A program made the translations under genes and the position numbers. Under the pieces are notes generated by a model. The model saw only the letters and a list, made by a program, of their open reading frames with translations, ran no database searches and was not told where the DNA came from. DNA of 64,000 nucleotides, from contig JAQSWY010000019.1 in NCBI GenBank assembly GCA_029266425.1, forward strand, positions 1 through 64,000, in the 5' to 3' direction. Positions 11,009 to 38,906 of the stretch are shown here, in pieces (positions within the stretch are counted from its first letter, which is position 1; each line of letters begins with the position of its first letter). The stretch is from Xanthobacteraceae bacterium. Its GTDB lineage: Bacteria; Pseudomonadota; Alphaproteobacteria; Rhizobiales; Xanthobacteraceae.

Positions 11009-11569
11009 ATGAGCGAGATCATCGACAAGCCTTTCGTGCCGCTGAACATCGCGGTGCTCACCGTCTCCGACACCCGCACCCTTGCGGACGACCGCTCCGG
11101 CACGACGCTGGCGGAGCGGATCGAGGCCGCGGGCCACCGGCTTGGCGACCGCGCCATCGTGCCGGACGACGTGCCGGCGATCCGCGGCAAGGTGGAAGGC
11201 TGGATCGCCGACAAGGCGATCGATGTCGTCATCACCACCGGCGGCACCGGCTTCACCGGCCGCGACGTGACGCCGGAAGCGCTGGAGCCGCTGTTCGAGA
11301 AGCGCATGGAAGGCTTCTCGACGGTGTTCCACATGGTCTCCTATCGGAAGATCGGCACCTCGACCCTGCAGAGCCGGGCGACGGCGGGCGTCGCCAACGC
11401 CACCTATGTGTTCTGCCTGCCGGGCTCGCCCGGCGCCTGCCGCGATGCCTGGGACGAGATCCTCGTCCACCAGCTCGATGTCCGGCACAAGCCGTGCAAT
11501 TTCGTCGAGATACTGCCGCGCCTCGACGAGCACCTGAAACGCGCCAAGGCGAAGGGCGCGACGGTTTAG
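11009..11569 (+). CDS. moaB: Molybdenum cofactor biosynthesis protein B
   Basis: This is a 186-residue MoaB/MogA-fold protein. LNIAVLTVSDTRTLADDRSG lies at the N-terminus, and TTGGTGFTGRDVTPEA carries the MPT-binding GGTG motif, followed by FCLPGSPGACRDAWDEIL. MoaB-type proteins adenylylate molybdopterin ahead of molybdate insertion, or act as a MogA substitute. It follows ypfJ by 16 bp and ends before a palindromic element, so it is probably the last gene of that transcript. Confidence 0.95.
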   Translation: MSEIIDKPFVPLNIAVLTVSDTRTLADDRSGTTLAERIEAAGHRLGDRAIVPDDVPAIRGKVEGWIADKAIDVVITTGGTGFTGRDVTPEALEPLFEKRMEGFSTVFHMVSYRKIGTSTLQSRATAGVANATYVFCLPGSPGACRDAWDEILVHQLDVRHKPCNFVEILPRLDEHLKRAKAKGATV

Positions 11570-23515: not shown

Positions 23516-23815
23516 TCAGCAACCATGTCGCAATCGGTCGCCGGTGGAAATCACGATGAATGAGCCGTCGGCTTCCAACTCAACATTCAGCCCCGTGGCC
23601 GTCATATAGCTCAGCGTGCCCATTGCGTGGGACGGGCCGGAGAACATCATGCCGCCCAGCACCTTCTGCCGCTCGATCAGCATGACGGGGCGGCCCTTAT
23701 CGTCGATGCAGGGAATCCGGCGTTCGACGAAGCCGCTGTCGGGGCCGAGCAGGTGATCGAGCGCCTGCCGCACGCCGCGCCAGAAGGCGATCGCTCGACT
23801 TTCATGTGTCGGCAT
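23516..23815 (-). CDS. Hypothetical protein at the 3' end of the ABC/M20 operon
   Basis: This 99-residue ORF starts MPTHESRAIAFWRGVRQALD and overlaps the M20 hydrolase stop by 14 bp, suggesting translational coupling. It contains FVERRIPCIDDKGRPVMLIE then RQKVLGGMMFSGPSHAMGTL. I do not recognise a family. It may be a genuine accessory gene of the cluster or a remnant at its border with the upstream fragments. Confidence 0.5.
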   Translation of the reverse strand: MPTHESRAIAFWRGVRQALDHLLGPDSGFVERRIPCIDDKGRPVMLIERQKVLGGMMFSGPSHAMGTLSYMTATGLNVELEADGSFIVISTGDRLRHGC

Positions 23816-25025
23816 AGGCGACGACCGCATTGAGCAGCGTCTGCGCGCCCGCGCCGCAATCTTCGCGCGTCGCGCTCTCCGCGGGATTGTGACTGAGCCC
23901 GTCCTTGCAGGGCACGAAGATCATGGCCGTCGGCATAATGCGGGCGGTGTAGACCGCATCGTGGCCGGCGCCGGACACGATGCGCCGGGCCGGAAAACCT
24001 TCCGCTGCGGCGCCGGCGGCCACGGCAGCGACGCACTCATCGTTGAAGGTGACAGGCGGGCTGTTCCAGATCCGCGTCATGCGCGCGGGCATGCTTTCCA
24101 TCTCGGCGCTGGAGAGATAATCCCCCAGTTCTGCCTCCATCGCATCGAGCACCGTGCTTTCGGGATGGCGCAGGTCGAGCGTGAGGCGCACCTCGCCCGG
24201 CACCACGTTGCGCGAGGCCTCGACGACACCGATCTCACCTACGGTGGCCAGCGCGCCATGCTCCAGCGCGACACGCCGCGCCTCCAGGATGACATGCGCC
24301 GCCGCGCACAGCGCGTCGCGCCGCAGGGCCATCGGCGTGGTGCCGGCATGGGCGGCGCGTCCACCAATGGAGATGTCATACCAGCGCATGCCCTGCACGC
24401 CGCTGACGATGCCGATCGTGTCGCCCGCCGCCTCCAGCACCGGACCCTGCTCGATGTGCAGCTCGAACATGGCACCGAGCTTCACCGCGCCGAGCGGCGT
24501 CTCGCCGTGATAACCGATGGCGTCGAGCGCCGCGCCGAAGGTGACGCCCTGCGCGTCGGTGCGGCTGTTGATGAAGTCGGCGGTGAAGACGCCGGCATGA
24601 GCGCCCGATGCCATCATCGCCGGGGCGAAGCGCGAGCCTTCCTCATTGGTCCAGTTGACCAGCATGAGAGGCCGACGGGTGACGTAGCCTTCCTCGTCCA
24701 GCGTTCGCAGGATTTCGAGTCCCGCGAGCACGCCCAGCACCCCGTCGAACTTGCCGCCGGTCGGCTGGGTGTCGAGGTGGCTGCCCATTGCGACTGGGAG
24801 CGCGTCGGGATCGGCTCCGGGGCGCAGGGCGAACATGTTACCGAGTTCATCCACGGTGACCGTGCAGCCGAGCGCCTCGCAGGCATCCCGCAGCCAGTCG
24901 CGCACCTGACGATCCTCATTGCTGAGGGCGAGGCGGCGTACGCCACCGTCCGGTGTGCCGCCAAAGCGCGCCGTTTCCATCAGCGTGCTCCAAAGGCGGT
25001 CGCGGTCGATCTTCAGGTTCGGCAT
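23802..25025 (-). CDS. M20-family Zn-dependent hydrolase (N-carbamoylase/allantoate amidohydrolase type)
   Basis: This is a 407-residue M20 peptidase of the amidase/hydantoinase-carbamoylase group. GSHLDTQPTGGKFDGVLGVL (metal His/Asp), NWTNEEGSRFAP (catalytic and metal Glu) and ELHIEQGPVLE are typical, and AGHDAVYTARIMPTAMIFVP near the C-terminus fits the family. Members hydrolyse N-carbamoyl amino acids, ureidoglycolate or allantoate, releasing NH3 and CO2. It is last but one in the operon with the amino-acid-type ABC transporter. A ureido substrate would follow logically from the amidinohydrolase encoded at 29617. Confidence 0.9.
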   Translation of the reverse strand: MPNLKIDRDRLWSTLMETARFGGTPDGGVRRLALSNEDRQVRDWLRDACEALGCTVTVDELGNMFALRPGADPDALPVAMGSHLDTQPTGGKFDGVLGVLAGLEILRTLDEEGYVTRRPLMLVNWTNEEGSRFAPAMMASGAHAGVFTADFINSRTDAQGVTFGAALDAIGYHGETPLGAVKLGAMFELHIEQGPVLEAAGDTIGIVSGVQGMRWYDISIGGRAAHAGTTPMALRRDALCAAAHVILEARRVALEHGALATVGEIGVVEASRNVVPGEVRLTLDLRHPESTVLDAMEAELGDYLSSAEMESMPARMTRIWNSPPVTFNDECVAAVAAGAAAEGFPARRIVSGAGHDAVYTARIMPTAMIFVPCKDGLSHNPAESATREDCGAGAQTLLNAVVAYADT

Positions 25026-25076: not shown

Positions 25077-25868
25077 TTACCCGCGGGTGAGCACCGTTTT
25101 CAGGAAGTCGCGGGTGCGCGGCTCGACCGGATTGCTCATCAGCGCCTTGGCCTCGCCGGTTTCCACGACCCGGCCCTGATCCATGAACACGACGCGGTCC
25201 CCGACATCACGGGCGAAGCCGAGCTCATGGGTCACGACAATCATGGTCATACCTGTGGAGGCGAGGTCACGCATCACGGCGAGCACCTCGCCGACGAGTT
25301 CGGGATCCAGCGCCGAGGTGGGCTCGTCGAACAGCATCAGCATCGGCTGCATGGCGAGCGCGCGGGCAATGGCGACACGCTGCTGCTGGCCGCCGGAGAG
25401 CTCGGACGGGTAGGCATTCGCCTTGTGGGCAAGCCCGACCTTGTCGAGCAGCAGCATCGCCGCGTCATGCGCCGCGTCGCGGCGGCGGCGGAGGACCTGG
25501 GTGGGGCCCTCTGTGACGTTCTCCAGCGCGGTCATGTGCGGGAACAGGTTGAAGCGCTGGAACACCATGCCGGTCTTGCGGCGCTGGCGGGCGATTTCCT
25601 TGTCACCGAGCGGACGTAGCGCGTCCCCGACCTGGCGGTAGCCGAGCAACTCGCCATCGAGCCAGAGGCCGCCGCTGTCGAAAGTTTCAAGTTGATTGAT
25701 GCAGCGCAGGAAGGTCGTCTTGCCCGAGCCGGACGGGCCGATGATGCAGACCACCTCGCCGGGCCAGACATCCATCGTCACGTCGGCGAGCGCCTGGTGG
25801 GCGCCGAACTTCTTGCCCACCTTTACGGCGGAGACCACCGGGGTCACGGCGGGAACATGCGCGTTCAT
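25077..25868 (-). CDS. Amino-acid-type ABC transporter ATP-binding protein
   Basis: This 263-residue ATPase of the GlnQ/HisP group has Walker [10 protein letters not shown], the Q-loop in [10 protein letters not shown], signature [14 protein letters not shown] and Walker [12 protein letters not shown]. The ATG at 25868 overlaps the permease stop by four bases (ATGA), indicating coupling. It energises import through the permease encoded immediately upstream, with the binding protein at 26746. The substrate is likely an amino-acid-like compound used by the neighbouring enzymes. Confidence 0.95.
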
Positions 25869-26704
25869 CGGGCCCCTCCGGTGCCGAAGCCGCGACCATA
25901 GCGCTTCTCCAGCATGCGCTGGAACACGGTGAGGACGGTGACGATGACGAGAAACCAGAAGGTGGGTACCATCAGGAGTTCGATGACCTTGGCGTTCGAG
26001 TAGTAGATGTCCTGTGCGCTGCGGACGACATCGCCGAAGCCGATGATCGAGGCAAGCGCGGTCATCTTGACGAGGCCGATGAACTCGTTGCCGAGCGGGG
26101 GCACGACGATGCGCATCGCCTGCGGAAGGATGATGCGTCGGAGCGCCATGCCCCCGGTCATTCCCATCGCCTTGGCGGCCTCGTACTGGCCTCGATCCAC
26201 GCCGAGCATGCCCGAGCGGATAATCTCGGAGACATAGGCGCCCTGATTGAGCCCAAGGCTCAGAATGGTCGCCACGGCGGGAGTGATCAGAACGACGGTC
26301 TTGAATTCGAACAGGCCGGGAATGCCGATGGTGGGGAACACCAGAGCGAGGTTGAACCAGATCAGCAATTGCAGGATCACCGGCGCGCCGCGGAAAAACC
26401 ACGCATAGAAGATCGCGACCCCGCGCAGCACCGGATTGGCGGAATTATGCGCCACCGCGCAGGCGAGCCCGATCACGAGGCCGACCGCCATGCAGACGAA
26501 CGATATCCAGATCGTGTTGAACAGCCCCCATAGGATGGTGGGCCAGAACAGAAACTCCCAGGTCGTCGCCCATTCGATCTTGCCGTTGGCGAAGGCGCGC
26601 ACAAGCAGGAAGGCGAGAATGAGGATCGCGATGGTCGCCGCGATCCTCCCATAATGTGGGCGCCTGACATGGCGGAGGCGCGCTATGTCAAGCTCCTCCG
26701 CCAT
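25865..26704 (-). CDS. Amino-acid-type ABC transporter permease
   Basis: This 279-residue inner-membrane protein of the HisM/GlnP type has about six helices and the EAA loop ([20 protein letters not shown] then [14 protein letters not shown]). The ATG at 26704 ([20 protein letters not shown]) is the natural start. Only one permease gene is present, so the transporter probably uses a homodimer. It lies 42 bp after the binding-protein stop and overlaps the ATPase start. Confidence 0.93.
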
Positions 26705-26745: not shown

Positions 26746-27582
26746 TCACGGCTGCGGCCCGGCGTTGATGGTCACGTCCTTGTAGGTGGAGATGTCGAGC
26801 TTCCACTTCTTGATCAGCTCGTCATAGGTGCCGTCGGCGATGACCTTCCTGAGGGCGGCCGCGAAGGCCTCGCGCAGGACGACGCTTTCCGCGTCCTTGT
26901 TGAAGGCCATGCCCATCAGCGCCGTGGAGATCGGCTCGCCGAGGATCATGAAGGTGCCCGGCTCGGTCTGAACGATGGTCGGCACAGCTTCCAGCCCCTG
27001 CACGCCTGCGACCGCGCGGCCGGTCTTCAGATTGGTGATCTGCTGGCCAAGATTGGTGTCGAGGATGACCGTGATCGGCTCCTTGCCCACGCACGTCTTC
27101 TCCGAGAATGCCTTGATCACGTCCGGATAGGAGGTGCCGCGCACGCTGGAAACGGTCTTGCCGCAGAGGTCTTCGAGCTTCGTGACCTCCTTGTTGTCGG
27201 CGAGCGAATAGAACTGCGCGCCGGCCTTGAGATAGTCGATGAAGTCGAAGATCGCGCGCCGCTTGGGGGTGTCGTAGAAGCCGCTCATGATCACGTTGAC
27301 CCGGCCCGACTGGAGCGAGGGCGTCATCTGCTCGAAGGCACCGTCCTGGTGCTCGATCGTGACGCCGAGCACCTTGCCCATGGCGCGGGAGAGGTCGATA
27401 TCGAAGCCTTCGAGTTCGCCGGCGGTGTTGCGCATCTCGAGCGGGGGATAGGCCGCCTCGATGGCGATGCGAACCACCTTCGACTTCTCGATGTCAGGTG
27501 GCAGCGTCTGGGCGGAGGCGAGACCGATCTGGCCGACGAGGCCGAGCGTCGCGATTACCGGGAGAATCGTGGTTCTGAACAT
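26746..27582 (-). CDS. ABC transporter periplasmic substrate-binding protein
   Basis: This 278-residue family-3 solute-binding protein has a signal peptide (MFRTTILPVIATLGLVGQIG then LASAQ). IAIEAAYPPLEMRNTAGELE then GFDIDLSRAMG is the amino-acid-binding fold, and RGTSYPDVI resembles the ligand carboxylate-binding region. It is followed by permease and ATPase genes in the same operon. The ligand cannot be named; operon context suggests an amino acid or a guanidino/ureido derivative. Confidence 0.93.
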   Translation of the reverse strand: MFRTTILPVIATLGLVGQIGLASAQTLPPDIEKSKVVRIAIEAAYPPLEMRNTAGELEGFDIDLSRAMGKVLGVTIEHQDGAFEQMTPSLQSGRVNVIMSGFYDTPKRRAIFDFIDYLKAGAQFYSLADNKEVTKLEDLCGKTVSSVRGTSYPDVIKAFSEKTCVGKEPITVILDTNLGQQITNLKTGRAVAGVQGLEAVPTIVQTEPGTFMILGEPISTALMGMAFNKDAESVVLREAFAAALRKVIADGTYDELIKKWKLDISTYKDVTINAGPQP

Positions 27583-27657: not shown

Positions 27658-28572
27658 TCAGCGGCTCGGCCGTACCAGTTGAGGGACGGACGCGGGCCAG
27701 AAGGGCAGACGCTCGACGGGCGGGGTCCATTCGCCCAGCGCCACGAGACCGTCGATGTGGGCGGCCATTTCGGCGAGCGTGGCGAACCACACGTCGCCCT
27801 TGTCCTGCATGTGGTCGATGAGTTCGACCATGGCCTGGGCGCGGGCGAGGCGACCCGACACGAAGGGATGCCAGATCGCCGCCCACACGCCGCCATGGTT
27901 CCACGCGGCGTCGAACTCCGCACGGAAGACGTCCATCGCCCGCGCCGGCGACTGGATCGTCATGCCCATGTTGAATTCCTTGAGGTTCACATATTGCGGC
28001 CAGTCGTCGAGCGTGTGGTCGGATGGCAGCTCGATCAGGCGGCCCTTCTTGCCCTCAAGCAGGTAGGGAATGTCGTCGCCCGGCAGCGAGGCGTCATAGG
28101 TGAAGCCAAGCTCGATCAGCAGGTCGAGCGTGTGCTCGGAGAACGCGCCGGACGGGGCGCGATAGCCCACGGGTGGCTTGCCGGTGACCTTCTCGATCGC
28201 CGCGATGCCGCGCTCCAGCACAGCGCGTTCGTCGTCGCGCGAAAGCTGGTTGGGCCGCTCATGGAGCCAGCCGTGATGGCCGAGCTCATGGCCGTCTGCA
28301 AGCAGCGCCTCGATGGCGGCGGGATAGGTCTCGATGCACCAGCCCGGCACGAACACGGTCTGCCGGATGCCGAAATGCTTCCAGATGCGGGCGATGCGCG
28401 GGATGGCGACGCGGGCCCCGTAGCGCAGCGAGGAAGACAGGCTGATCCGACGGGTGGCATCCTCCGGGTAGTAGAGGTGCAGCAGGCTCTCGGCGTCGAA
28501 ATCAAAGGAGAAGCACACGGCGCAGCGCGCGCCGTTGGGCCATGGGGGCGGATTGTCGATCAGCTTGAGCAT
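27658..28572 (-). CDS. Polysaccharide deacetylase-fold (NodB) hydrolase, PuuE-like
   Basis: This 304-residue NodB-fold enzyme has SFDFDAES carrying the metal Asp pair, GHELGHHGWLHE with the metal His residues, and GYRAPSGAFSEHT with the oxyanion Arg. The start MLKLIDNPPPWPNGARCAVC is family-like. Besides sugar deacetylases, this group includes PuuE-type allantoinases and peptidoglycan or small-amide hydrolases. In an operon with an amino-acid transporter and an M20 carbamoylase-like enzyme, a small C-N-bond hydrolase is more likely than a polysaccharide enzyme. It is divergent from tetR and shares operator site A. Confidence 0.88.
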   Translation of the reverse strand: MLKLIDNPPPWPNGARCAVCFSFDFDAESLLHLYYPEDATRRISLSSSLRYGARVAIPRIARIWKHFGIRQTVFVPGWCIETYPAAIEALLADGHELGHHGWLHERPNQLSRDDERAVLERGIAAIEKVTGKPPVGYRAPSGAFSEHTLDLLIELGFTYDASLPGDDIPYLLEGKKGRLIELPSDHTLDDWPQYVNLKEFNMGMTIQSPARAMDVFRAEFDAAWNHGGVWAAIWHPFVSGRLARAQAMVELIDHMQDKGDVWFATLAEMAAHIDGLVALGEWTPPVERLPFWPASVPQLVRPSR

Positions 28573-28752
28573 GCACCACTCACAAGAGGCCTGACGCAGG
28601 CCGTCGCACCCCGTGAGGGATGTACGAGCCGTGCCGCACCGACGGGAAGCTACAAGCAACATCCCGCCATCGACGCCCGCTGCCCAACGTTTCACAGGGC
28701 GATCAAGGCAGCGCGCCGATGCCCGATATAATTCGAAGTTAAATTTTTATCG

Positions 28753-28771
28753 TCAACTCTAATTTTAGAGC
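28753..28771. promoter_or_regulatory. Candidate TetR operator, site A
   Basis: GTCAACTCTAATTTTAGAG lies between the divergent deacetylase and tetR genes, 70 bp before the tetR start. It matches site C (36361-36379) at all but two positions and contains the dyad CTCTA-N4-TAGAG. It probably binds the adjacent TetR regulator; that is inferred. Confidence 0.55.
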
Positions 28772-28841
28772 AAAATACACGCTCGTATCGGCGCGGCGTT
28801 TCCGCTAGAAGTCAGGGAAAACGCGGGGAGCGAGCGGCGCG

Positions 28842-29498
28842 ATGGCGGGTGGCAGGCTAAGAGAGAAGCACAAGCGGCTCAGAGCTGAACAAGTTTTGGA
28901 CGCGGCCGAGCACCTGTTCAGCCAGAGAGGCTACGAGGCCACCCGCATCGAGACGATCGCGGAGAAGGCATCGGTAGCGCCGGCGACCGTCTACAACTAC
29001 TTCGCCACCAAGCCGAACCTGCTCATGGAACTGGCGATGCGCCACGTCCATGCCGCGCTTCCCGAACGGCGAAGCTTCATCCGCAACCTGCCGGACGAAC
29101 CGGTTGCTGGCATGCTGGCCTTCGAGCGACTGCTGGCGGAGCAGGCGATGCGGCACCTGTCCCGCGAATCCTGGCGCGTCATCATGTCGGCGCAGTATCT
29201 GGAGCCTGAGGGACGTGCCAGCAGCACGGGGATGCGCCTCACCACCCTGATCAAGCGTCATTACATCCGCCTGATCCGCACCTATCAGCAGCGCGGACGT
29301 CTCGACCCGACTGTCGAGCCAGCGGTGCTGGCCGAGCTGATCGTGGGCATCACGACCTTTTTCTTCGGTAATTTCGTCTCCAGTTCCGCCGGAACGGTGG
29401 AAGAGATGCTGAGCAAGGGCGCGGTCCATATCGAGCTCATCCTGCGCAGCATGGTGCGGCAGCCGGCAGAGGACACGGCCTCTTCAGGCCGCCCATGA
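28842..29498 (+). CDS. TetR-family transcriptional regulator
   Basis: This 218-residue regulator has a TetR helix-turn-helix (EHLFSQRGYEATRIETIAEK then ASVAPATVYNYFATKPNLLM) and a helical ligand domain. It sits between the leftward ABC/deacetylase operon and the rightward amidinohydrolase operon. The three copies of a CTCTA-containing dyad, before its own promoter region, before the rightward operon and before the EamA transporter, suggest that it controls all of them. The ligand is unknown, probably the pathway substrate. Confidence 0.92.
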   Translation: MAGGRLREKHKRLRAEQVLDAAEHLFSQRGYEATRIETIAEKASVAPATVYNYFATKPNLLMELAMRHVHAALPERRSFIRNLPDEPVAGMLAFERLLAEQAMRHLSRESWRVIMSAQYLEPEGRASSTGMRLTTLIKRHYIRLIRTYQQRGRLDPTVEPAVLAELIVGITTFFFGNFVSSSAGTVEEMLSKGAVHIELILRSMVRQPAEDTASSGRP

Positions 29499-29510
29499 GA
29501 CCCCGCGCTG

Positions 29511-29534
29511 AAATTTAGAGCTAACTCCAAATTT
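29511..29534. promoter_or_regulatory. Candidate TetR operator, site B
   Basis: AAATTTAGAG (29511-29520) and CTCCAAATTT (29525-29534) form a near-perfect 10-bp dyad with a 4-bp spacer, 82 bp before the amidinohydrolase start. Its reverse strand contains GTTAGCTCTAAATTT, related to sites A and C. It probably regulates the rightward operon. Confidence 0.5.
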
Positions 29535-29616
29535 CTATTGCAACGCCGCGAACCGGCTCCTAGGCTCCGCTCGACGCATCAGATGCACGAGATCATGCGA
29601 AGTCCGGGGGCCTGAG

Positions 29617-30621
29617 ATGGGCGCGATCACCGAGAACGAGTGGCGTTACAACCAGTTGATCAAGCAGTTCCCCTCGGAGGCGGAGCCCGCTTTCGAGGAT
29701 GAGGAGCAGCAGCTGCGCTGGTGGGGCCGCAAATGGGGCTGCACCAACGATGTGGGCAGGCTGCGCGTGGTGCTGATGCACCGGCCGGGGAACGAGGTGA
29801 ACATCGTCGACCCTGCGCGCCGGCTCGACAACAACGCCTTCGGCGACACCCAGGAAGGCTGGTACTGGCGCGGCGACGAGCCGCCGGACCTCGCCACCAT
29901 GCAGGCCCAGCACGACGGCTATGTGGCTGCGCTTCGCAAGGAGGGCGTCGAAGTCGTCTTCATCGATGAGGCGGCGCCCGGCCGCATGAAGACCTGCTAC
30001 ACCCGCGACGCGGTCGTCGGCATCGGTGGCGGGGCGATGGTCATGCGCCTCGGACCGCGCATCCGGCGCGGCGAGGAGCTTCCGGCCACGCGGACGCTGG
30101 CGAAGATCGGCTGCCCGATCCTGCGCACCATCTCGGGTACCGGCGTCGCGGAAGGCGGCAGCTTCTGCTGGCTCGCCCCTAACGTCGCGGCCACCGGCAT
30201 CTCCTCGCGCACCAATGAGGAGGGCGCGCGGCAGATCGAGGAAGTGCTGCGCTCGCAGGGCGTCGAACTCATCAAGGTGCCGCTCACCGGCTACCGCCTG
30301 CACATCGACGGGCTGTTCGTGATGATCGGGCCGGACCTCGCGCTGGCGAACTTCACCCTGCTGCCGTTCTGGTTCATCGAGAAGCTGACCGAACTCGGCA
30401 TCCGGCTGATCGAACTGCATCATGAGGACGACGGGGCGATCATCAACTCGCTCGCCACCGCGCCCTATCGGGTGATGATGCCTGAGGGCATCTCCGGCTA
30501 CACGCGCGATCGGCTGGATCTTGCCGGCGTCGAGGTCATCACTGTGCCCTACGATAAGGTGATTTCCGGCGGCGGCGGGCTGCACTGCTCGACCTCGCCG
30601 CTGATCCGCGACGAGATCTGA
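29617..30621 (+). CDS. Amidinotransferase/DDAH-family guanidino-modifying hydrolase
   Basis: This 334-residue protein has the pentein fold shared by dimethylarginine dimethylaminohydrolase, arginine deiminase and glycine amidinotransferase. LRVVLMHRPGNEV is the first fold repeat, GYRLHIDGLF carries the catalytic His, and GGGGLHCSTSPL near the C-terminus carries the nucleophilic Cys. Such enzymes attack guanidino carbon, giving ureido products by hydrolysis or transferring the amidine. It heads an operon with an AbgB-like amidohydrolase (3 bp gap), an aldolase and a TPP enzyme. Hydrolysis to a ureido compound would suit the carbamoylase-like enzyme of the divergent operon. Confidence 0.88.
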   Translation: MGAITENEWRYNQLIKQFPSEAEPAFEDEEQQLRWWGRKWGCTNDVGRLRVVLMHRPGNEVNIVDPARRLDNNAFGDTQEGWYWRGDEPPDLATMQAQHDGYVAALRKEGVEVVFIDEAAPGRMKTCYTRDAVVGIGGGAMVMRLGPRIRRGEELPATRTLAKIGCPILRTISGTGVAEGGSFCWLAPNVAATGISSRTNEEGARQIEEVLRSQGVELIKVPLTGYRLHIDGLFVMIGPDLALANFTLLPFWFIEKLTELGIRLIELHHEDDGAIINSLATAPYRVMMPEGISGYTRDRLDLAGVEVITVPYDKVISGGGGLHCSTSPLIRDEI

Positions 30622-30623
30622 CC

Positions 30624-32231
30624 ATGTCGGGCGATGCGGACAACCCAGGCGCGGGAGCCTGGAGTGAGGCGCAGGCGCGCGCGCTCGTCTTCCTCGAGGA
30701 TCGTCATCAGGCGTTCTCCGCCGATCACATGACGATCTGGAACCTCCACGAGCCGTCCTGGCGCGAGTACAAATCCTCCGCCTGGTACATGGACCGGCTG
30801 GAGCGCGAAGGCTTCACCGTCGAGCGCGACACGGCGGGCATGCCGACTGCGTTCCGCGCCCGCTGGTCGAACGGGCCGGGGCCGGTGATCGCCGGCTATG
30901 CCGAATATGACGCCGTGCCGGGACAGGCTCAGGCTCCCGTGCCCTACCGTTCCGCCCGCGAGGGTGTCAGCCGTCACGCGGCGGGCCATACGGACCCGCA
31001 TTCGGCGCTGGGCATGGGTTCTTTCGCCGGCTTCCTCGCCGCCAAGCACGCCATGGAGGCTCACGGCATCGGCGGCACGCTGGTGTTCTTCGGCGAGCCG
31101 GCGGAGAAGATGTGCGGTGCCAAGCCCGTTCATGCCGCGCACGGTTTTTATGACGGGCTCGATGCCGCCATCAGCTTCCACCCGCATTCCTTCCCGGCGC
31201 TGACCAATGGCTGCTTCTGGGAGACCACCAGCGCTCCCTACTGGAGCCGCATCTACACCTTCGAGTGTGGGAGCCCCGAGACCTGGCAGAACGAGGCGGC
31301 GGGTGGGACTGTGAGCCATGTCCACGCCATGGCGCGTGCGCCGGGCGCGATCGACGCGGTGTGCCTGATGTACACCAACTCGAAGATGATGAAGGAATCC
31401 ATGCTGCCGCATTCCGGCTCGTGGACGCTCAACGAGTTCATTCCCATCGCCGGGCAGGCGGCGGCGGACAACATCGCTCCGGGCATCGGGCAGATCCAGT
31501 ATTCGATGCGCGCGCCGAACCTTGCTATGTGCGAGGCGGCCTTCGCGGTCCTCGACCGCAACGCCGACCACATCGCAGCGATGACGCATTGCGCGGTGAC
31601 GAAGGCGTGGATCACCAAGACCCGCGCCGGCCTGCCCAACAAGGCGATGGCCGAACTCACCTTCGCCAACTTCGAACGGCTCGGCGCGCCCATATGGTCG
31701 GACGAGGCGAAGGCTTTCGCCCGCCAGCTTCAGGAGGGCCTCGGCGTGGAGCCGATGGAGCAGCCGTTCCTTGAGGGCATGCAGAAGCTGACGCCTCCCT
31801 GGGAAGCGGAAGAGGCCTTCCGCGCGCAGCTGCCGGCTTGGCAGTTGAACTACGCGGCGGACGATTACGTCGACTACACCTGGCACGCGCCGACCGTCCG
31901 GCTCTATGTCGCGCGCCCGACGCTGCAACCGCCGCAGTCCGGGCTGCGCTATCCGGAATGGACGCGCAACGCAATGGGCGGCGTGCCGGCCTGCATCGAC
32001 CCGATGTGGAGCAAGGCGGCGCAGGTGATCTCCACCACGATCCTTGACCTGATGACGAAGCCCGAGGCGCTGGAGGCCATAAAGGCCGAGTTCCGCGAGC
32101 GCACCGGCGGCGGCGTCGGCGGTTCGAAATGGGTCGCCCCGCTGCTTCCGGCGGATTTCGAAGCGCCCATCGGCTATCGCTGGCCGGAATATGTCGACAC
32201 GCCGCGCGGGCGAGAGTGGAGCGTCCCGTGA
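30624..32231 (+). CDS. M20-family amidohydrolase, AbgB-like
   Basis: This 535-residue M20D-type hydrolase resembles p-aminobenzoyl-glutamate hydrolase subunit B. VIAGYAEYDAVPGQ, HAAGHTDPHSALGMGSFAGF (metal His/Asp), FGEPAEKMCGAKPVHAAHG (catalytic Glu and metal ligands) and ISFHPHSFPALT are visible. Members cleave N-acyl or N-aroyl amino acids. The start is 3 bp after the amidinohydrolase stop, so the genes are coupled. Its role here may be release of an acyl group from the imported compound. Confidence 0.9.
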   Translation: MSGDADNPGAGAWSEAQARALVFLEDRHQAFSADHMTIWNLHEPSWREYKSSAWYMDRLEREGFTVERDTAGMPTAFRARWSNGPGPVIAGYAEYDAVPGQAQAPVPYRSAREGVSRHAAGHTDPHSALGMGSFAGFLAAKHAMEAHGIGGTLVFFGEPAEKMCGAKPVHAAHGFYDGLDAAISFHPHSFPALTNGCFWETTSAPYWSRIYTFECGSPETWQNEAAGGTVSHVHAMARAPGAIDAVCLMYTNSKMMKESMLPHSGSWTLNEFIPIAGQAAADNIAPGIGQIQYSMRAPNLAMCEAAFAVLDRNADHIAAMTHCAVTKAWITKTRAGLPNKAMAELTFANFERLGAPIWSDEAKAFARQLQEGLGVEPMEQPFLEGMQKLTPPWEAEEAFRAQLPAWQLNYAADDYVDYTWHAPTVRLYVARPTLQPPQSGLRYPEWTRNAMGGVPACIDPMWSKAAQVISTTILDLMTKPEALEAIKAEFRERTGGGVGGSKWVAPLLPADFEAPIGYRWPEYVDTPRGREWSVP

Positions 32232-32320
32232 GCGGCACGCCTCCGGCATCGTCTTCGCTCCCGACACGCGGTGCGCCGCGCGCCTCTCGTTCCACCCGCT
32301 GAAAGCTGCTGGAGTCCGCT

Positions 32321-33094
32321 ATGCCGATCCCTTCGCTTCCTCCCGTGCCGCCGCCGCCCGGCTATCAGCCGACCGAGCAGGAACTGCGCGAGGACCTCGC
32401 GGCCGCCTACCGGCTGATTGCGTATTTCGGCATGAGCGATACGGTGTTCACGCATCTTTCCGTTCGGGTGTCGGGCGAGGGCCATCGTTTTCTCGTCAAC
32501 CCGTATGGCCTGCTGTTCGAGGAGATCACCGCGAGTTCGCTGGTGCTGGTTGACGCCGATGGCGAGCCGGCACAGGAGACCTCCTGGCCGTTCAATCCGG
32601 CGGGGTTCGTCATCCATTCGGCGGTTCATTGCGAGCGCGAGGACGCGGCCTGCGTCATGCATACACATACGCTCGCCGGCATGACGGTCGCGGCGCAGGA
32701 AGGCGGGCTCCTCCCGCTCAACCAGATGAGCATCGAGTTCTATGACGAGATCGGCATCCACGAATATGAGGGGATCGCCGCCGACGACAATTTGAGCGAG
32801 CGCGAACGGCTGGTGCGCGATCTCGGAGCCAGGCATGCGCTGATTCTGCGCAATCACGGCCTGCTCACCGTGGGGGCGACGGTCGCCGAGGCGTTCTACT
32901 GGATGTACTATCTCGAACAGTCCTGCCGCCTGCAGGTCGCCGCGCAGTCCACCGGCGTGCCGCTCTCCATGCCCCCCTCGCAGGTGGTGGCGCGCACCGC
33001 GAAGCAGTTTGCAGGGGAAGCCAACAAGGGCTGGCTGCCCTGGCAGGCGTTCCGTCGCAAGCTCGACCGCGAGCAGCCGGAGTATCGTTCGTGA
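32321..33094 (+). CDS. Class II aldolase/adducin-family protein
   Basis: This 257-residue protein has HLSVRVSGEGHRFLVNPYGL, then HSAVHCEREDAACVMHTHTL and RNHGLLTVGATVAEAFYWMY. His residues in MHTHT and the later His in RNHGLL are the metal ligands of class II aldolases; the Glu in HCERED is a candidate catalytic residue. Members cleave phosphorylated sugars or 4-hydroxy-2-keto acids. The N-terminus is Pro-rich (MPIPSLPPVPPPPGYQPTEQ). The downstream TPP gene overlaps its stop by four bases. The substrate is unknown. Confidence 0.9.
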   Translation: MPIPSLPPVPPPPGYQPTEQELREDLAAAYRLIAYFGMSDTVFTHLSVRVSGEGHRFLVNPYGLLFEEITASSLVLVDADGEPAQETSWPFNPAGFVIHSAVHCEREDAACVMHTHTLAGMTVAAQEGGLLPLNQMSIEFYDEIGIHEYEGIAADDNLSERERLVRDLGARHALILRNHGLLTVGATVAEAFYWMYYLEQSCRLQVAAQSTGVPLSMPPSQVVARTAKQFAGEANKGWLPWQAFRRKLDREQPEYRS

Positions 33095-34713
33095 CCGGCG
33101 CGGCATCTGCCATGACGGGCGGCGAAGCGGTCGTGGCCGCGCTGAAGGCCAATGGGATCACCACGCTCTATGGCGTGCCGGGCATCCAGCTCGACCATCT
33201 GTTCAACGCGCTGCATGGAGCGCAGGACTGGCTGCGGATCGTCAATGCACGTCATGAGCAGGGTGTCGCCTATATGGCGCTCGGCCACGCGCAGTCCACC
33301 GGCGAGCCCGGTGTCTATGTCTGCGTGCCCGGTCCTGGCTTCCTCAACACGACGGCGGCACTCTCCACCGCCTATGCGGTGCGTGCGCCGGTGCTGGCCA
33401 TCATCGGGCAGATCGCAACCTCCGCCATCGGCGTGGGCGGGGGCGAACTTCACGAGTTGCCGGATCAGACAGCGATCGTGAAGGGCCTCACTCGCTGGAG
33501 CGGCATTGCCCGCAGCGTCGAGGACGTGCCGGCGCTGATGGAGACGGCCTTCGCGAAGCTCAAGGCTGGCATCGCGCCCGTCGCTGTGGAACTGCCGGCG
33601 GACGTGCTGCAAGGGCTTGCCGAGCTGCGGCCCGCGCGCGCCGCCGAAGCGCCCGCGCCGAAAGCGCCGCGCGAGGAGGACATCGCCCGTGCCGCTGCCT
33701 TGCTGGCAGGGGCGAAGGCGCCGCTCATCATCGTCGGCTCGGGCGCCTATGGTGCAGAGGACGCGCTGGCGCGTCTTGCCGAGCACATCGAGGCGCCAGT
33801 GATCGCCCATCTTCAGGGGCGCGGCGTGCTGCCGAGCACCCATCCTCTCGCCGTCGGCTTTGCCGAAGGGCAGCGTCTGTGGGAGGAGGCGGACGTCATC
33901 CTCGCCGTCGGCACGCGCTTTCATGAAGCGCGGCGTAACTGGGGCGAGCGAGCCCATCACAAGGTCATCCGCATCGACACCGATCCGTCGCGCTTCGCAC
34001 TCGGGCAGGCGCCAAAGATCGCCATCGAGGCGGATGCGCCGCTCACCCTCGCGCGGCTGTCCGAGAGGGTGGAAGCTGCGGGTCCGGCAAGGCGAACCCG
34101 CGCTGGGGAGATCGCGGCGCTCAAAGGGCAAATCGCGGACGCCTTCGCCACCCATCTTGCATTGCAGATGGCGTATGTGCGCGCGTTGCGGGAAGATCTG
34201 CCGGCGAGGGCACGCATCGTCGCCGACTATACCCAGATCGGCTATGTCGCGACCGCCGCCTTCGAAGTGGAAGCGCCGCGCCTGATGCTGTCACCGGGCT
34301 ATCAGGGCACGCTGGGCTTCGCCTATGCGACGGCTCTGGGCGCAAAATCCGCCAATCCGGACGTGCCGGTCGTTGCGTTGTGTGGCGATGGCGGCTTTCT
34401 GTTCACCGGCAACGAGATCGCGAGCGCCGTGAAGCATGGCATCGCTGCGATCGGCATCGTTTTCGTCGATGGGGCTCTCGGCAATGTGCGGCGCATGCAG
34501 GAAGAGCTTTATGGCGGCAAGGTCGTCGCGACCGATCTCGCCAATCCCGACTTCGTGCGCTTCGCCGAGAGCTTTGGCGCCACGGCGCGCCGTGCCGAAG
34601 GAATCGAGGCGTTCCGGGAGGCGCTCATATGGGCAATCGCGCAGACCGGCCCCACTCTGATCGAGGTGCCGGTGCCGAAATTCCCCGATCCGTGGGCGCT
34701 GGTCGAGCCCTGA
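33091..34713 (+). CDS. Thiamine-diphosphate-dependent enzyme, acetolactate synthase-like
   Basis: This 540-residue enzyme has the three domains of the acetohydroxyacid synthase/benzoylformate decarboxylase family. The Pyr domain contains NARHEQGVAYMA with the cofactor-activating Glu, then PGPGFLNTTAAL. The central domain includes KAPLIIVGSGAYG. The PP domain has the ThDP motif CGDGGFLFTGNEI ending near GALGNVRRMQ. The GTG start overlaps the aldolase stop (GTGA). It is last in the operon and probably acts on a 2-keto acid made by the upstream enzymes, by decarboxylation or carboligation. Confidence 0.9.
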   Translation: MTGAASAMTGGEAVVAALKANGITTLYGVPGIQLDHLFNALHGAQDWLRIVNARHEQGVAYMALGHAQSTGEPGVYVCVPGPGFLNTTAALSTAYAVRAPVLAIIGQIATSAIGVGGGELHELPDQTAIVKGLTRWSGIARSVEDVPALMETAFAKLKAGIAPVAVELPADVLQGLAELRPARAAEAPAPKAPREEDIARAAALLAGAKAPLIIVGSGAYGAEDALARLAEHIEAPVIAHLQGRGVLPSTHPLAVGFAEGQRLWEEADVILAVGTRFHEARRNWGERAHHKVIRIDTDPSRFALGQAPKIAIEADAPLTLARLSERVEAAGPARRTRAGEIAALKGQIADAFATHLALQMAYVRALREDLPARARIVADYTQIGYVATAAFEVEAPRLMLSPGYQGTLGFAYATALGAKSANPDVPVVALCGDGGFLFTGNEIASAVKHGIAAIGIVFVDGALGNVRRMQEELYGGKVVATDLANPDFVRFAESFGATARRAEGIEAFREALIWAIAQTGPTLIEVPVPKFPDPWALVEP

Positions 34714-34735
34714 GCCGAGCCGCTTTCCCGAACGA

Positions 34736-34769
34736 GAAAGGCCGGGCCTTCATCAGGTCCGGCCCTTTC
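34736..34769. terminator. Hairpin terminator after the TPP-enzyme gene
   Basis: AAAGGCCGGGCC and GGTCCGGCCCTTT pair around a 7-base loop, with A runs before and T runs after the stem on both strands. It can therefore work in both directions between the convergent genes. A second GC stem, GGCCGGG/CCCGGCC, lies at 34796-34819. Confidence 0.7.
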
Positions 34770-34828
34770 ATGTGCCGCGTCTGCCGAAGCAACGAGGCCG
34801 GGCCGCAAGCGACCCGGCCCGTGCAGCA

Positions 34829-35305
34829 TCACGCGGCGGCGATGTCGGTGATCTGGTGGTCGTACTGGTCGCCCTTGGTGACGGAGGGGACGACCTTGAC
34901 CGTGCCGTCGGCGTTCACGGTGAAGCCGCGGACACCGGCATAGGAGATGTCATTGTCCTCAAGCAGCTTCTGCGCGACGGCTTCCTGGCCGGCGGGGACG
35001 TAGACGAAGAAGTGCTTCACATGGGTCGGGGTGTCGTTGTCGGTCAGATCCGAGCCGGCCTTGAGATAGGGCAGCGCCTCCGGCCCGATGTTCATCTCGA
35101 CTTCGCCGAGCTCGCGCACGCGGCCGGTACGGTCGGTGATGACGATGTCCGGATAGTGCTCGCCCGCGGGGGTCTGAATGGCACTCTTGGGCTCGGGCAC
35201 GTTCGTGGTGGTCACGTAACCGTCCGGCCAGGTGGTCTGACCCGGGAAGGGGAAGCGGTACTTGGCGATGTAGTTGACCACGAGGTCGTGGGTATCCTTC
35301 GACAT
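34829..35305 (-). CDS. Soluble protein with PD-(D/E)XK-like pattern, internal start within the transporter frame
   Basis: From the ATG at 35305 (MSKDTHDLVVNYIAKYRFPF) this encodes 158 residues, preceded by an excellent CAGGAGA site seven bases upstream. HYPDIVITDRTGRVRELGEV then EMNIGPEALPYL, and later HVKHFFVYVPAGQEAVAQKL, suggest the core of a PD-(D/E)XK nuclease-like fold, with PD and ExE but Met where Lys is usual. The frame is continuous with the EamA transporter upstream, so it may also be made as that protein's C-terminal domain. The function is unknown and the fold call is tentative. Confidence 0.6.
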   Translation of the reverse strand: MSKDTHDLVVNYIAKYRFPFPGQTTWPDGYVTTTNVPEPKSAIQTPAGEHYPDIVITDRTGRVRELGEVEMNIGPEALPYLKAGSDLTDNDTPTHVKHFFVYVPAGQEAVAQKLLEDNDISYAGVRGFTVNADGTVKVVPSVTKGDQYDHQITDIAAA

Positions 35306-36301
35306 GCTTGTCTCCTGTTGCGAAGGGGGAAGAAAGGGAGCGAGGGGGAGCACCGGCGTCGCCGCGATTTCCGCGGCGGGCATTGGCTGGCTCCGCGAGG
35401 ACGCATTCTCCAGCAGCACCACCTGCACGCCGGAGGCGATCACCAGCACCGCGCCTAGCGTAACGAGCGCTGTCGGGACGTCGCCGAACATCAGGTAACC
35501 CAGAGCGAAGCCGCTGATCAGCGCGCCATATTCCAGCACCGCGAGCACATGAGCCGGCAGATGACGGGCGGCTTCATAAAGCGCGAGCTGGCCGGAACCG
35601 CCGACGACCCCGATCAGAGCCATGCTGCCGATCTCGGTCCAGGATGCCTCCCAGCCGAGCCAAGGCAGTTGGATGGCCGACGCCAGCACGAAGACGCCGT
35701 TCGCCACGGCTACCTGCACGAGGCTGCCCTCCTCGCTCGCCATGGAGCGAAGCATGAGCAGAGCCGCCGCCCATAACGCAGAGGAGAGAAGTCCCAAGGC
35801 GACGGCCGGTGAGAGCTCGAAGCTGACGAGCCCGCTCGCCAGCAGCACGCCAACGAAGCCTACCGCGATGGCCAGCCAGTGCCGTACGCTCGGCCATTCA
35901 CCGAGTACGGGGCCGGACGCGACCGCGACGAGAATGGGCGAGACGAAATAGAGCGTAATCGCCTGTGCCAGCGGCATGGAGCGCATTGCCAGGTAGAACG
36001 CTGTCCACGCCGCGAACATGACGGCCGAGCGCACGATCATGGTGCGCCTGACGGGTGATCGGATCACGCGCGTCACCACACCCATCCGACTGATGACGAG
36101 CGCAAGGACCAGCACGGTGAAACTGCGAACCATGAGCACCTGCGCCACGGGCAGGTCAGTGATGAGTTCCTTGGTCAGCGCGTCCTGTAGCGGGAGAAGC
36201 ACATTGGCGACCATGACGAGCGTCACGGCAAGCAGCAGCGCCCTACCAGGCGAGCCCAGCTTCAGGGCCTCCCGGCCTCGGCGAGTGTGACGAAAGTCCA
36301 T
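34829..36301 (-). CDS. EamA/DMT-family transporter, in frame with C-terminal soluble domain
   Basis: The first 300 or so residues (MDFRHTRRGREALKLGSPGR onward) form a ten-helix drug/metabolite transporter with two EamA repeats, e.g. LAMRSMPLAQAITLYFVSPI and HLPAHVLAVLEYGALISGFA. After a Pro/Ala linker (PAAEIAATPVLPLAPFLPPS) the frame runs without a stop into the 158-residue soluble protein described at 34829-35305. A full 490-residue fusion is thus possible, as are two proteins with a reinitiation site. Operator site C lies 60-78 bp upstream, linking it to the TetR regulon. It could export a pathway product or import the substrate. Confidence 0.8.
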   Translation of the reverse strand: MDFRHTRRGREALKLGSPGRALLLAVTLVMVANVLLPLQDALTKELITDLPVAQVLMVRSFTVLVLALVISRMGVVTRVIRSPVRRTMIVRSAVMFAAWTAFYLAMRSMPLAQAITLYFVSPILVAVASGPVLGEWPSVRHWLAIAVGFVGVLLASGLVSFELSPAVALGLLSSALWAAALLMLRSMASEEGSLVQVAVANGVFVLASAIQLPWLGWEASWTEIGSMALIGVVGGSGQLALYEAARHLPAHVLAVLEYGALISGFALGYLMFGDVPTALVTLGAVLVIASGVQVVLLENASSRSQPMPAAEIAATPVLPLAPFLPPSQQETSMSKDTHDLVVNYIAKYRFPFPGQTTWPDGYVTTTNVPEPKSAIQTPAGEHYPDIVITDRTGRVRELGEVEMNIGPEALPYLKAGSDLTDNDTPTHVKHFFVYVPAGQEAVAQKLLEDNDISYAGVRGFTVNADGTVKVVPSVTKGDQYDHQITDIAAA

Positions 36302-36360
36302 TCGCAGCAGCCCTAAGCTGTGCTGACAGGTGGAGACGATGGAAAGAGCAGATAAATGAT

Positions 36361-36379
36361 GTCAACTCTATTTTTGGAG
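36361..36379. promoter_or_regulatory. Candidate TetR operator, site C
   Basis: GTCAACTCTATTTTTGGAG lies 60 bp before the EamA transporter start. It differs from site A at two positions only and keeps the CTCTA-N4-TGGAG dyad. It places the transporter in the same proposed regulon as the 23.5-34.7 kb genes. Confidence 0.55.
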
Positions 36380-36526
36380 TTTGCTTCAATGAAGCCTCGT
36401 CGTCAACAAGCGCCCGATCGACGGCGGCGAGGCTTTTTGGGGCTATCGAGGCGGTCCATAATTCGATGATCAGTCGTGCCACCGCCCTCACGGCGTCGCC
36501 CGCGCTGTGGGACGTGAGAGCACCGG

Positions 36527-37709: not shown

Positions 37710-38600
37710 CTAGCCGATGCGCGGCCAATGCGTGGCGACGTGATCGACGAAGCCCCGTAGTTTGGGCGAGGCCATCCGCGCATGCTGGAACAACAACTGG
37801 ACCGGCGTCGGCTCGCGCTGATAGGCGCCGAGCAGCGCCTGCAGACGACCGGCGCGCAGATCGTCCGCGACATACCAGGACGGCGCACGCGTGATGCCGA
37901 GGCCGTCGCGCGCGCCCGCCACCGCCACATCCAGACTGTTGACCGACAAGCGGCCGTTGAGGCGGACGGTCCGGCTGCGCCCATCGACATGGAAACGCCA
38001 ATCGACCGGCCCCGCATTCTCGGAGAATGTCAGGCAATCATGCGCCTTCAGCTCCTCGGGCCGGGACGGCGCATCCCGCCTGGCGAGGTAATCGGGCGAA
38101 GCGCAGACAATGAGGTCGATATCGTCGAGCTTGCGCACCACCAGTTCAGAATCCGGCAGGTGCCCGATCCGCACCGAGAGGTCGATATCCTCCTCGATCA
38201 GGTTCACCGCGCGATCGAGCAGGATCAGGTCGATCGACATGGAGGGATAGCGGGCCAGAAAACCGGTCACCAGCGGCGCCAGTAACAGGCGCCCGATAAG
38301 GGTCGGCGCGCTGACGCGAAGCCGCCCGACAGGCTCGCTTACAGTGGAGGCAAGAGCGAGGTCAAGGTCTCGGACATCGCCCAGGATCGCCTTCGACCGC
38401 GAATAGAACAGCCGGCCTTGCTCGGTGAGCGCCAGGCTGCGCGTCGTGCGCCGGAGCAGCTGTACGCCCAGCTCGGCTTCCAGCGCGGCGATGGTCCGGC
38501 TGACCGCCGTGGCGGATCTCGACGTTTCACGCGCGGCGGCCGACAGGCTGCCGGCCTCGACGGCTCGTACGAGGAGTGCCATGCCTTCCAGGCGATCCAT
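37710..38600 (-). CDS. LysR-family transcriptional regulator
   Basis: This 296-residue regulator starts at ATG 38600 (MDRLEGMALLVRAVEAGSLS then AAARETSRSATAVSRTIAAL). The longer frame upstream is not needed. The substrate-binding domain follows from residue 88. It belongs to the CrgA-like group. It is divergent from a small membrane ORF and a DUF1275 gene, which it may control. The short dyad GCAAA-N4-TTTGC lies about 20-35 bp upstream of the start. Confidence 0.9.
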   Translation of the reverse strand: MDRLEGMALLVRAVEAGSLSAAARETSRSATAVSRTIAALEAELGVQLLRRTTRSLALTEQGRLFYSRSKAILGDVRDLDLALASTVSEPVGRLRVSAPTLIGRLLLAPLVTGFLARYPSMSIDLILLDRAVNLIEEDIDLSVRIGHLPDSELVVRKLDDIDLIVCASPDYLARRDAPSRPEELKAHDCLTFSENAGPVDWRFHVDGRSRTVRLNGRLSVNSLDVAVAGARDGLGITRAPSWYVADDLRAGRLQALLGAYQREPTPVQLLFQHARMASPKLRGFVDHVATHWPRIG

Positions 38601-38684
38601 CCTCACCTTCCCGAAAATCGCAAAAGTGTTTGCTACGGGCTGACGATACTCCCGCACCAAGCAAATACGATAATCGCCTCCATA

Positions 38685-38906
38685 ATGGGAGGCGCCCATG
38701 CGCATCGACCGATCCCTACCGACGCAGGCAGTGACACCGAGGGGACGGAGGCGGGCGAATTCGCCTTCGTCTGCTGCGTCAGCGCCTCCGGCCTCGCCGC
38801 CACCGGCCTGCTGCTGCTCGGTCCGCCAAACGCCACGGCGCTCTGCCTGATGGCCGCAGCCGCCGGCCTAGGCCTCGCATTATGGGCGACTGCCGGCCCG
38901 CCATGA
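38685..38906 (+). CDS. Small hypothetical membrane protein
   Basis: This 73-residue ORF starts MGGAHAHRPIPTDAGSDTEG and has two adjoining hydrophobic stretches (FAFVCCVSASGLAATGLLLL, ALCLMAAAAGLGLALWATAG). It begins 85 bp from the divergent LysR start and ends 13 bp before the DUF1275 gene, so it may be its operon partner. No family is recognised and no strong ribosome site is seen. Confidence 0.4.
   Translation: MGGAHAHRPIPTDAGSDTEGTEAGEFAFVCCVSASGLAATGLLLLGPPNATALCLMAAAAGLGLALWATAGPP

Follow-up and report, generated by a model that had tools for sequence, protein, structure and literature searches.

Does a single TetR-type regulator tie together the catabolic genes that surround it? This question is raised by a stretch of 64,000 nt from a Xanthobacteraceae bacterium (assembly GCA_029266425.1, contig JAQSWY010000019.1, positions 1 to 64,000; hereafter the window), in which a tetR gene lies among genes for an ATP-binding cassette (ABC) importer, several hydrolases, carbon-skeleton enzymes and a second transporter of the EamA family. 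A preliminary description had noticed near-identical sequences upstream of tetR and of the EamA gene (sites A and B) and a related dyad upstream of an amidinohydrolase gene (site C), and proposed that one regulator joins these genes into one pathway. Comparison with related loci argues for this proposal: it is highly probable that TetR, predicted to bind at three promoter regions, jointly controls four units, most likely as a repressor.

Site A (GTCAACTCTAATTTTAGAG, 28752-28770) and site B (GTCAACTCTATTTTTGGAG, 36361-36379) lie 7.6 kb apart and differ at two positions, as had been described, with the correction that site A begins one base before the originally given position 28753. The distances of A and B to their genes, put at 60–70 bp, are gaps of 71 nt to the tetR ATG (28842) and 59 nt to the EamA ATG (36301, minus strand). 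The pattern combined from both sites, with up to three mismatches allowed, is matched twice in 64 kb and in none of 100 shuffles. Site C (29511-29534) does lie 82 nt before the amidinohydrolase ATG (29617), and its relation to the other sites holds; its parsing had to be revised, as the half-sites face away from a GT-NN-AC centre, an arrangement unlike the repeat visible in A and B, though related to it.

A side-by-side reading of the regions upstream of tetR and amidinohydrolase orthologs revealed a nearly perfect back-to-back dyad before the amidinohydrolase gene of close relatives (AAATTTGGAGTTGACTCCAAATTT in A. sonchi). The unit TTTRGAGT-NN-ACTCYAAA occurs once in site C and twice, 18 bp apart, in sites A and B, where the visible inverted repeat (CTCYA..TRGAG) is the join between the two dyads. 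Across 11 C-type sites, the dyad centre has a palindromic identity of 0.74 (20-bp span), which drops to 0.35 and 0.45 when the centre is shifted by 9 bp in either direction; random 20-mers score 0.28.

A scan of genome contigs yielded 40 loci. A TetR ortholog with 61-85% identity is encoded in 13 of them (L017-L029), and 11 of these 13 contain at least a part of the cluster, in some cases most of it. A weight matrix was trained on 39 dyads. Of these, 30 come from tetR upstream regions (15 loci) and nine from amidinohydrolase upstream regions or, in the case of L029, from the region before the short-chain dehydrogenase/reductase (SDR) gene that precedes the amidinohydrolase gene. The window and the 13 loci together contain 62 dyads of at least 14 bits, 29 of them outside the training set, and all 62 fall into the 300-bp zones that precede cluster-gene homologs and comprise 43,299 of 311,190 bp (13.9% of the DNA). 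A Markov simulation gave three such dyads in 1.56 Mb, or about 0.6 expected per 311 kb, and the highest single score in a second run of 1.57 Mb was 17.0. All 14 sources have the motif beside tetR (training sites throughout). All ten sources with an amidinohydrolase gene have it before this gene or before the unit to which the gene belongs (nine being training sites), and of the 12 sources with a small orphan gene, 11 have it before the EamA gene, the orphan gene or both (no training site among them). The motif also accompanies genes that have been moved or inverted (L020, L025, L027, L029), namely the binding-protein gene (L020, L027), the inverted amidinohydrolase gene (L025) and the SDR-amidinohydrolase unit (L029), and stands before duplicated orphan genes (L022, L024, L025). 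In scans from which one clade at a time was left out, most sites stay far above permuted-matrix nulls. Since the same signal precedes cluster genes in many relatives and moves with the rearranged genes, TetR very probably controls the cluster. Conservation of the motif beside orthologous genes and in related genomes with the cluster, on which the preliminary description had made its proposal depend, is thus observed, and supports the predicted reach of one regulator over importer, hydrolases, carbon-skeleton enzymes and second transporter.

The spacing within double sites is similarly constant. Neighbouring dyads less than 60 bp apart (29 pairs in 22 sources) are spaced by 18 bp in 28 cases and by 21 bp in one; 11 of these 28 are tetR-upstream training pairs and 18 bp apart by construction, while 17 of the 18 non-training pairs are exactly 18 bp apart, the remaining one showing 21 bp. 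The 17 pairs lie before genes for EamA, the orphan protein, the binding protein, the GMC oxidoreductase and other products, and Sinorhizobium, Shinella and actinobacterial loci are among their sources.

The orphan protein was used to search plasmids, which gave eight records (seven Sinorhizobium, one Shinella); two of these were analysed, both outside the training set. In Sinorhizobium meliloti Rm41 pSymA and Shinella sp. PSBB067, all eight dyads above 14 bits precede cluster or related genes. Both loci carry a tandem pair between the deacetylase gene and tetR as well as one dyad before an M20-type gene, with no amidinohydrolase match there. A further tandem pair in Rm41 (L146:3764-3782) lies upstream of a class V aminotransferase gene and a second ABC set; the frame on its other side is presumably the start of an amidohydrolase. 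Two caveats apply: the Rm41 stretch has a further site of 10.1 bits in another place, and if the Shinella tetR started where its record puts it (11451), the tandem pair would fall inside the gene, whereas the protein match begins at 11550.

Unlinked sites were sought in six genomes by means of a pattern. A tandem operator (27.7 and 31.0 bits) lies 74 bp before a GMC oxidoreductase gene (L128:4911-6512) of A. defluvii, about 144 kb from the cluster, and a 51% homolog of this oxidoreductase adjoins the cluster ABC ATPase in Arsenicitalea. The search of the window's own genome that had been suggested revealed no comparable extra site among the scored pattern hits, several hits being unscored. The best scored match outside the cluster (C34:30569, L061; 16.0 bits) was judged to be near chance, and a candidate at G538:C16:74524 was rejected as a site (9.9-10.0 bits). 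A weak dyad-like site at a gene start is common to A. sonchi (C4) and A. sp. Lp-2 (C6), with 18.0 and 19.0 bits (L129:4742 and L130:5011); the gene may encode a sulfate-binding protein.

The protein itself has an N-terminal helix-turn-helix domain (PF00440, 54.1 bits versus a cut-off of 24). Its structural model (predicted local distance difference test, pLDDT, 86.9) is all-helical with a C-terminal ligand domain, and the fold search gave 409 PDB matches at E<=0.001, the best 50 of the 409 being TetR-type by title or, in some cases, transcriptional regulators. Loci of 27 distant TetRs (L030-L056) were intended as negative controls, yet eight of them contain sites above 15 bits, in seven cases directly upstream of the tetR of the locus, and the reading was revised accordingly. 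Among the control loci with a site, the only matches to cluster genes were ABC ATPases of 28-39% identity. Of 29 TetRs with the recognition helix TVYNY[FY]xTK, some of them actinobacterial, 26 have a site of at least 15 bits before their own gene, versus 7 of 50 others (p=2e-11); without the training genomes the counts are 11 of 14 versus 7 of 50 (p=1e-5). These values are not independent and overstate the case because the helix class was set post hoc with most loci already seen. The comparison left out L057-L068, duplicates, loci with less than 150 bp upstream and matches missing residues 40-58. As the operator tracks the recognition helix without cluster genes nearby, the motif is tied to TetR and not to a neighbour.

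The mode of control is suggested by the promoters. A minus-strand promoter for the deacetylase/ABC genes (TTGACG-N17-AATTAT, 28756-28728) was called by consensus scan, and its -35 box TTGACG lies inside the left dyad of site A, in agreement with the earlier claim that site A also serves this divergent operon. The sequence GTTGAC at this dyad is kept in all ten printed sequences with an adjacent deacetylase gene (the window and nine orthologs, L017-L025). Just downstream of site C, a putative promoter of the amidinohydrolase operon was read by eye and was not called by the consensus scan; in nine sequences (the window and eight orthologs), a TTG starts 15-17 nt after the dyad centre, and the L029 site has no TTG at that distance. 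Given this overlap of site A with the -35 box, the likeliest mode is that TetR represses and is released by a pathway compound. TetR would bind its back-to-back dyads at three promoter regions, as two dimers on the dyads 18 bp apart at A and B, resembling a pair of dimers, and as one dimer just upstream of the -35 box at C. Occupation of site A would block the -35 box, and an imported compound or an intermediate may release the repressor. The four units under common control would be tetR itself, the deacetylase/ABC importer/M20 genes, the amidinohydrolase/M20/aldolase/thiamine-pyrophosphate (TPP) enzyme genes and the EamA-orphan gene, their limits being predicted.

Other explanations account for less of this evidence. 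The dyads might bind a different regulator, such as the LysR-type protein encoded nearby (37710-38705), with TetR a mere neighbour; this is very improbable, given that operator presence follows the TetR recognition helix and that the operator also stands before distant tetR genes (L030-L032, L034, L037, L050, L051) without cluster genes beyond, at most, an ABC ATPase of 28-39% identity. The likeness of A, B and C could also reflect chance or A+T-rich promoter composition. In fact, the degenerate consensus is not enriched: the window holds 12 matches at up to three mismatches versus 6.8 expected (5 of 100 shuffles reach 12), and the own genome holds 17 versus 54 for the reversed control. A second pattern was likewise rarer than its reversed control in five of the six genomes searched. 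The consensus search was therefore rejected as a significance test, and the weight matrix and the orthologs were relied upon. Significance rests on the near-identity of A and B and on the comparison between genomes; with conservation extending to loci outside training, and some 0.6 simulated dyads set against the 62 observed, a chance origin is hardly conceivable. A further alternative concerns the sign of control, as TetR might repress at A and activate at least the amidinohydrolase promoter. Site C ends just short of the putative promoter, so that activation is possible there from a dimer at about -52, next to the -35 box, at the rather constant distance given above. Against this stand the coverage of the -35 box at A, the by-eye reading of the promoter at C and the prevalence of repressors among TetR-family proteins, as stated in passages of PMC4424350; activation is thus an unlikely variant of the model, and repression is preferred.

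Besides the missing enrichment, several observations weigh against joint control by TetR as set out here. At the promoters, GTTGAC is not kept in L012, L026 and L028, and site C lies upstream of, not across, its putative promoter. In L026 and L028, the tetR site is present without cluster genes (10 kb upstream and 0.2 and 1.2 kb downstream were examined), the EamA gene of L025 has no upstream site, and seven of the 50 TetRs outside the helix class also have sites of at least 15 bits. In the scans that omit their own clade, L025 (13.2 bits; null 95% level 15.9) and L027 (13.3; 13.1) have tetR sites at about the null level, and several A sites have second dyads below it. The right dyad of A, at 18.5 bits without the Ancylobacter clade, is close to the 95% level (18.8) of window-wide null maxima and not significant alone. 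Furthermore, the face-to-face middle dyad is the most symmetric one at A-type sites (0.58 versus 0.46 and 0.41), so that a single dimer on this middle dyad is possible there.

The features of the cluster are collected in Table 1. The gene downstream of site B was correctly described as an EamA transporter; the description had missed its in-frame fusion to an orphan domain, which forms a separate gene under the operator in several orthologs. This domain (about 155-158 aa) is fused to EamA in the window and in A. sonchi and stands apart from it, sometimes duplicated, in other orthologs. It has no Pfam match above cut-off. Its model (pLDDT 89.5) gives weak fold matches to PD-(D/E)xK proteins, with NucC, YaeQ and DUF820 near the top among the 50 matches listed (E>=8e-3, template modelling score <=0.45). 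The catalytic E-x-K is not found in the domain, the place being mostly taken by E-V-E, with lysine in none of 17 aligned sequences.

Table 1. Genes, predicted operator dyads and putative promoter of the TetR cluster in the window.
Feature	Position	Strand	Evidence
M20 hydrolase, allantoate amidohydrolase / N-carbamoylase type	23802..25025	-	NF006769 584.5 bits, cut-off 452
ABC ATPase	25077..25868	-	PF00005
ABC permease	25865..26704	-	PF00528
Amino-acid-type ABC solute-binding protein	26746..27582	-	PF00497
Polysaccharide-deacetylase-family protein, weakly PuuE-like (allantoinase)	27658..28572	-	PF01522; TIGR03212 102.5 bits
Site A, left dyad	28742..28767, centre 28754/28755, 26 bp		33.2-33.7 bits; 30.7 without Ancylobacter clade
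Site A, right dyad (tetR side)	28760..28785, centre 28772/28773, 18 bp from left dyad		19.1-19.4 bits
TetR-family regulator, helix VAPATVYNYFATK	28842..29498	+	PF00440
Site C, single back-to-back dyad	29510..29535, centre 29522/29523		34.7-35.1 bits; 32.0 without Ancylobacter clade
Putative amidinohydrolase-operon promoter, TTGCAA-N17-TAGGCT	29538..29566	+	read by eye, just downstream of C
Arginine deiminase / DDAH superfamily amidinohydrolase	29617..30621	+	PF02274
Amidohydrolase, M20 superfamily	30624..32231	+	TIGR01891 102.7 bits (below cut-off 153.75); PF01546 23.9 bits (just under 24.6)
Class II aldolase/adducin-type enzyme	32321..33094	+	PF00596; NF005451 336 bits, cut-off 207
TPP enzyme	33091..34713	+	PF02775/02776/00205; NF006122 616 bits, cut-off 571
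EamA transporter fused in frame to orphan 158-aa domain (34829-35305)	34829..36301	-	PF00892
Site B, proximal dyad	36351..36376, centre 36363/36364		26.7-27.1 bits; outside matrix training
Site B, distal dyad	36369..36394, centre 36381/36382, 18 bp further		24.3-24.7 bits; outside matrix training

The orthologous clusters add a nitroreductase gene, an SDR gene and, in Rhizobiaceae, aminotransferase genes. The nitroreductase-family gene (PF00881, tested on L018) occurs in nine of the 13 loci: L017-L019, L022 and L024 have it between the M20-type gene and the aldolase gene, L020 and L021 have it at the corresponding place but with no aldolase gene, and in L023 and L025 it has another location. 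It is missing in the window at 32231-32321, and the sole nitroreductase match in the own genome is 43% identical.

The combination of an amino-acid-type importer, a guanidine-modifying enzyme, a carbamoylase-type M20 enzyme and a deacetylase-fold hydrolase suggests the scavenging of a guanidino, ureido or cyclic-amide compound. The pathway is thus probably one for uptake and breakdown of a nitrogen-rich compound of this kind, whose carbon skeleton the aldolase and the TPP enzyme would process; no specific substrate is supported. With a testable operator and a defined gene set, the substrate of this conserved catabolic cluster can be hunted with a reporter. Beyond the cluster, one operator sequence may have been held across distant TetRs with the same recognition helix. 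Evenly balanced, in our judgement, is the wider proposal that a TetR subfamily of Alphaproteobacteria and Actinomycetes with the helix TVYNY[FY]xTK shares this operator, often doubled at 18 bp, so that operators could be predicted from the protein, and that its member here runs an undescribed catabolic regulon with the orphan small protein (possibly of PD-(D/E)xK fold) among its most constant targets.

Control of nitrogen salvage by a TetR protein is known from RutR, the operator of which differs from the one found here. Set against RutR/PuuE pyrimidine/ureide catabolism, the deacetylase-fold hydrolase is distantly PuuE-like, and by NCBIfam scores neither protein belongs to the named family (TetR, TIGR03613, 30.6 bits versus a RutR cut-off of 368; deacetylase, TIGR03212, 102.5 bits versus a PuuE cut-off of 424.6). 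AguR was dropped as a lead after the literature search. This search of open-licence PMC papers found no description of the operator or the cluster, and the cluster is not named in passages of a paper on arginine catabolism in S. meliloti (PMC7268258). Two QacR dimers bind one operator before the regulated genes, according to passages of PMC9736018; the two dyads here differ in their 18-bp offset and sequence, and their paired binding is predicted from this spacing only. As described in parts of PMC4424350, MbdR of Azoarcus, a TetR repressor of a catabolic cluster, likewise acts on operators at several cluster promoters including its own, whereas its operator (ATAC-N10-GTAT), genes and ligand are of another kind. 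FadR of Thermus and Sulfolobus (3anp, 3ang, 6en8) ranks near the top in the fold search with the TetR model; its identity is only about 20%, its ligands are acyl-CoA, and no fatty-acid gene is found among the annotated genes here. The predicted autoregulated TetR regulon over a catabolic cluster is of a known kind, in a cluster that is apparently undescribed. What is unusual is how strongly the predicted operator is supported by sequence alone, together with its apparent sharing across phyla.

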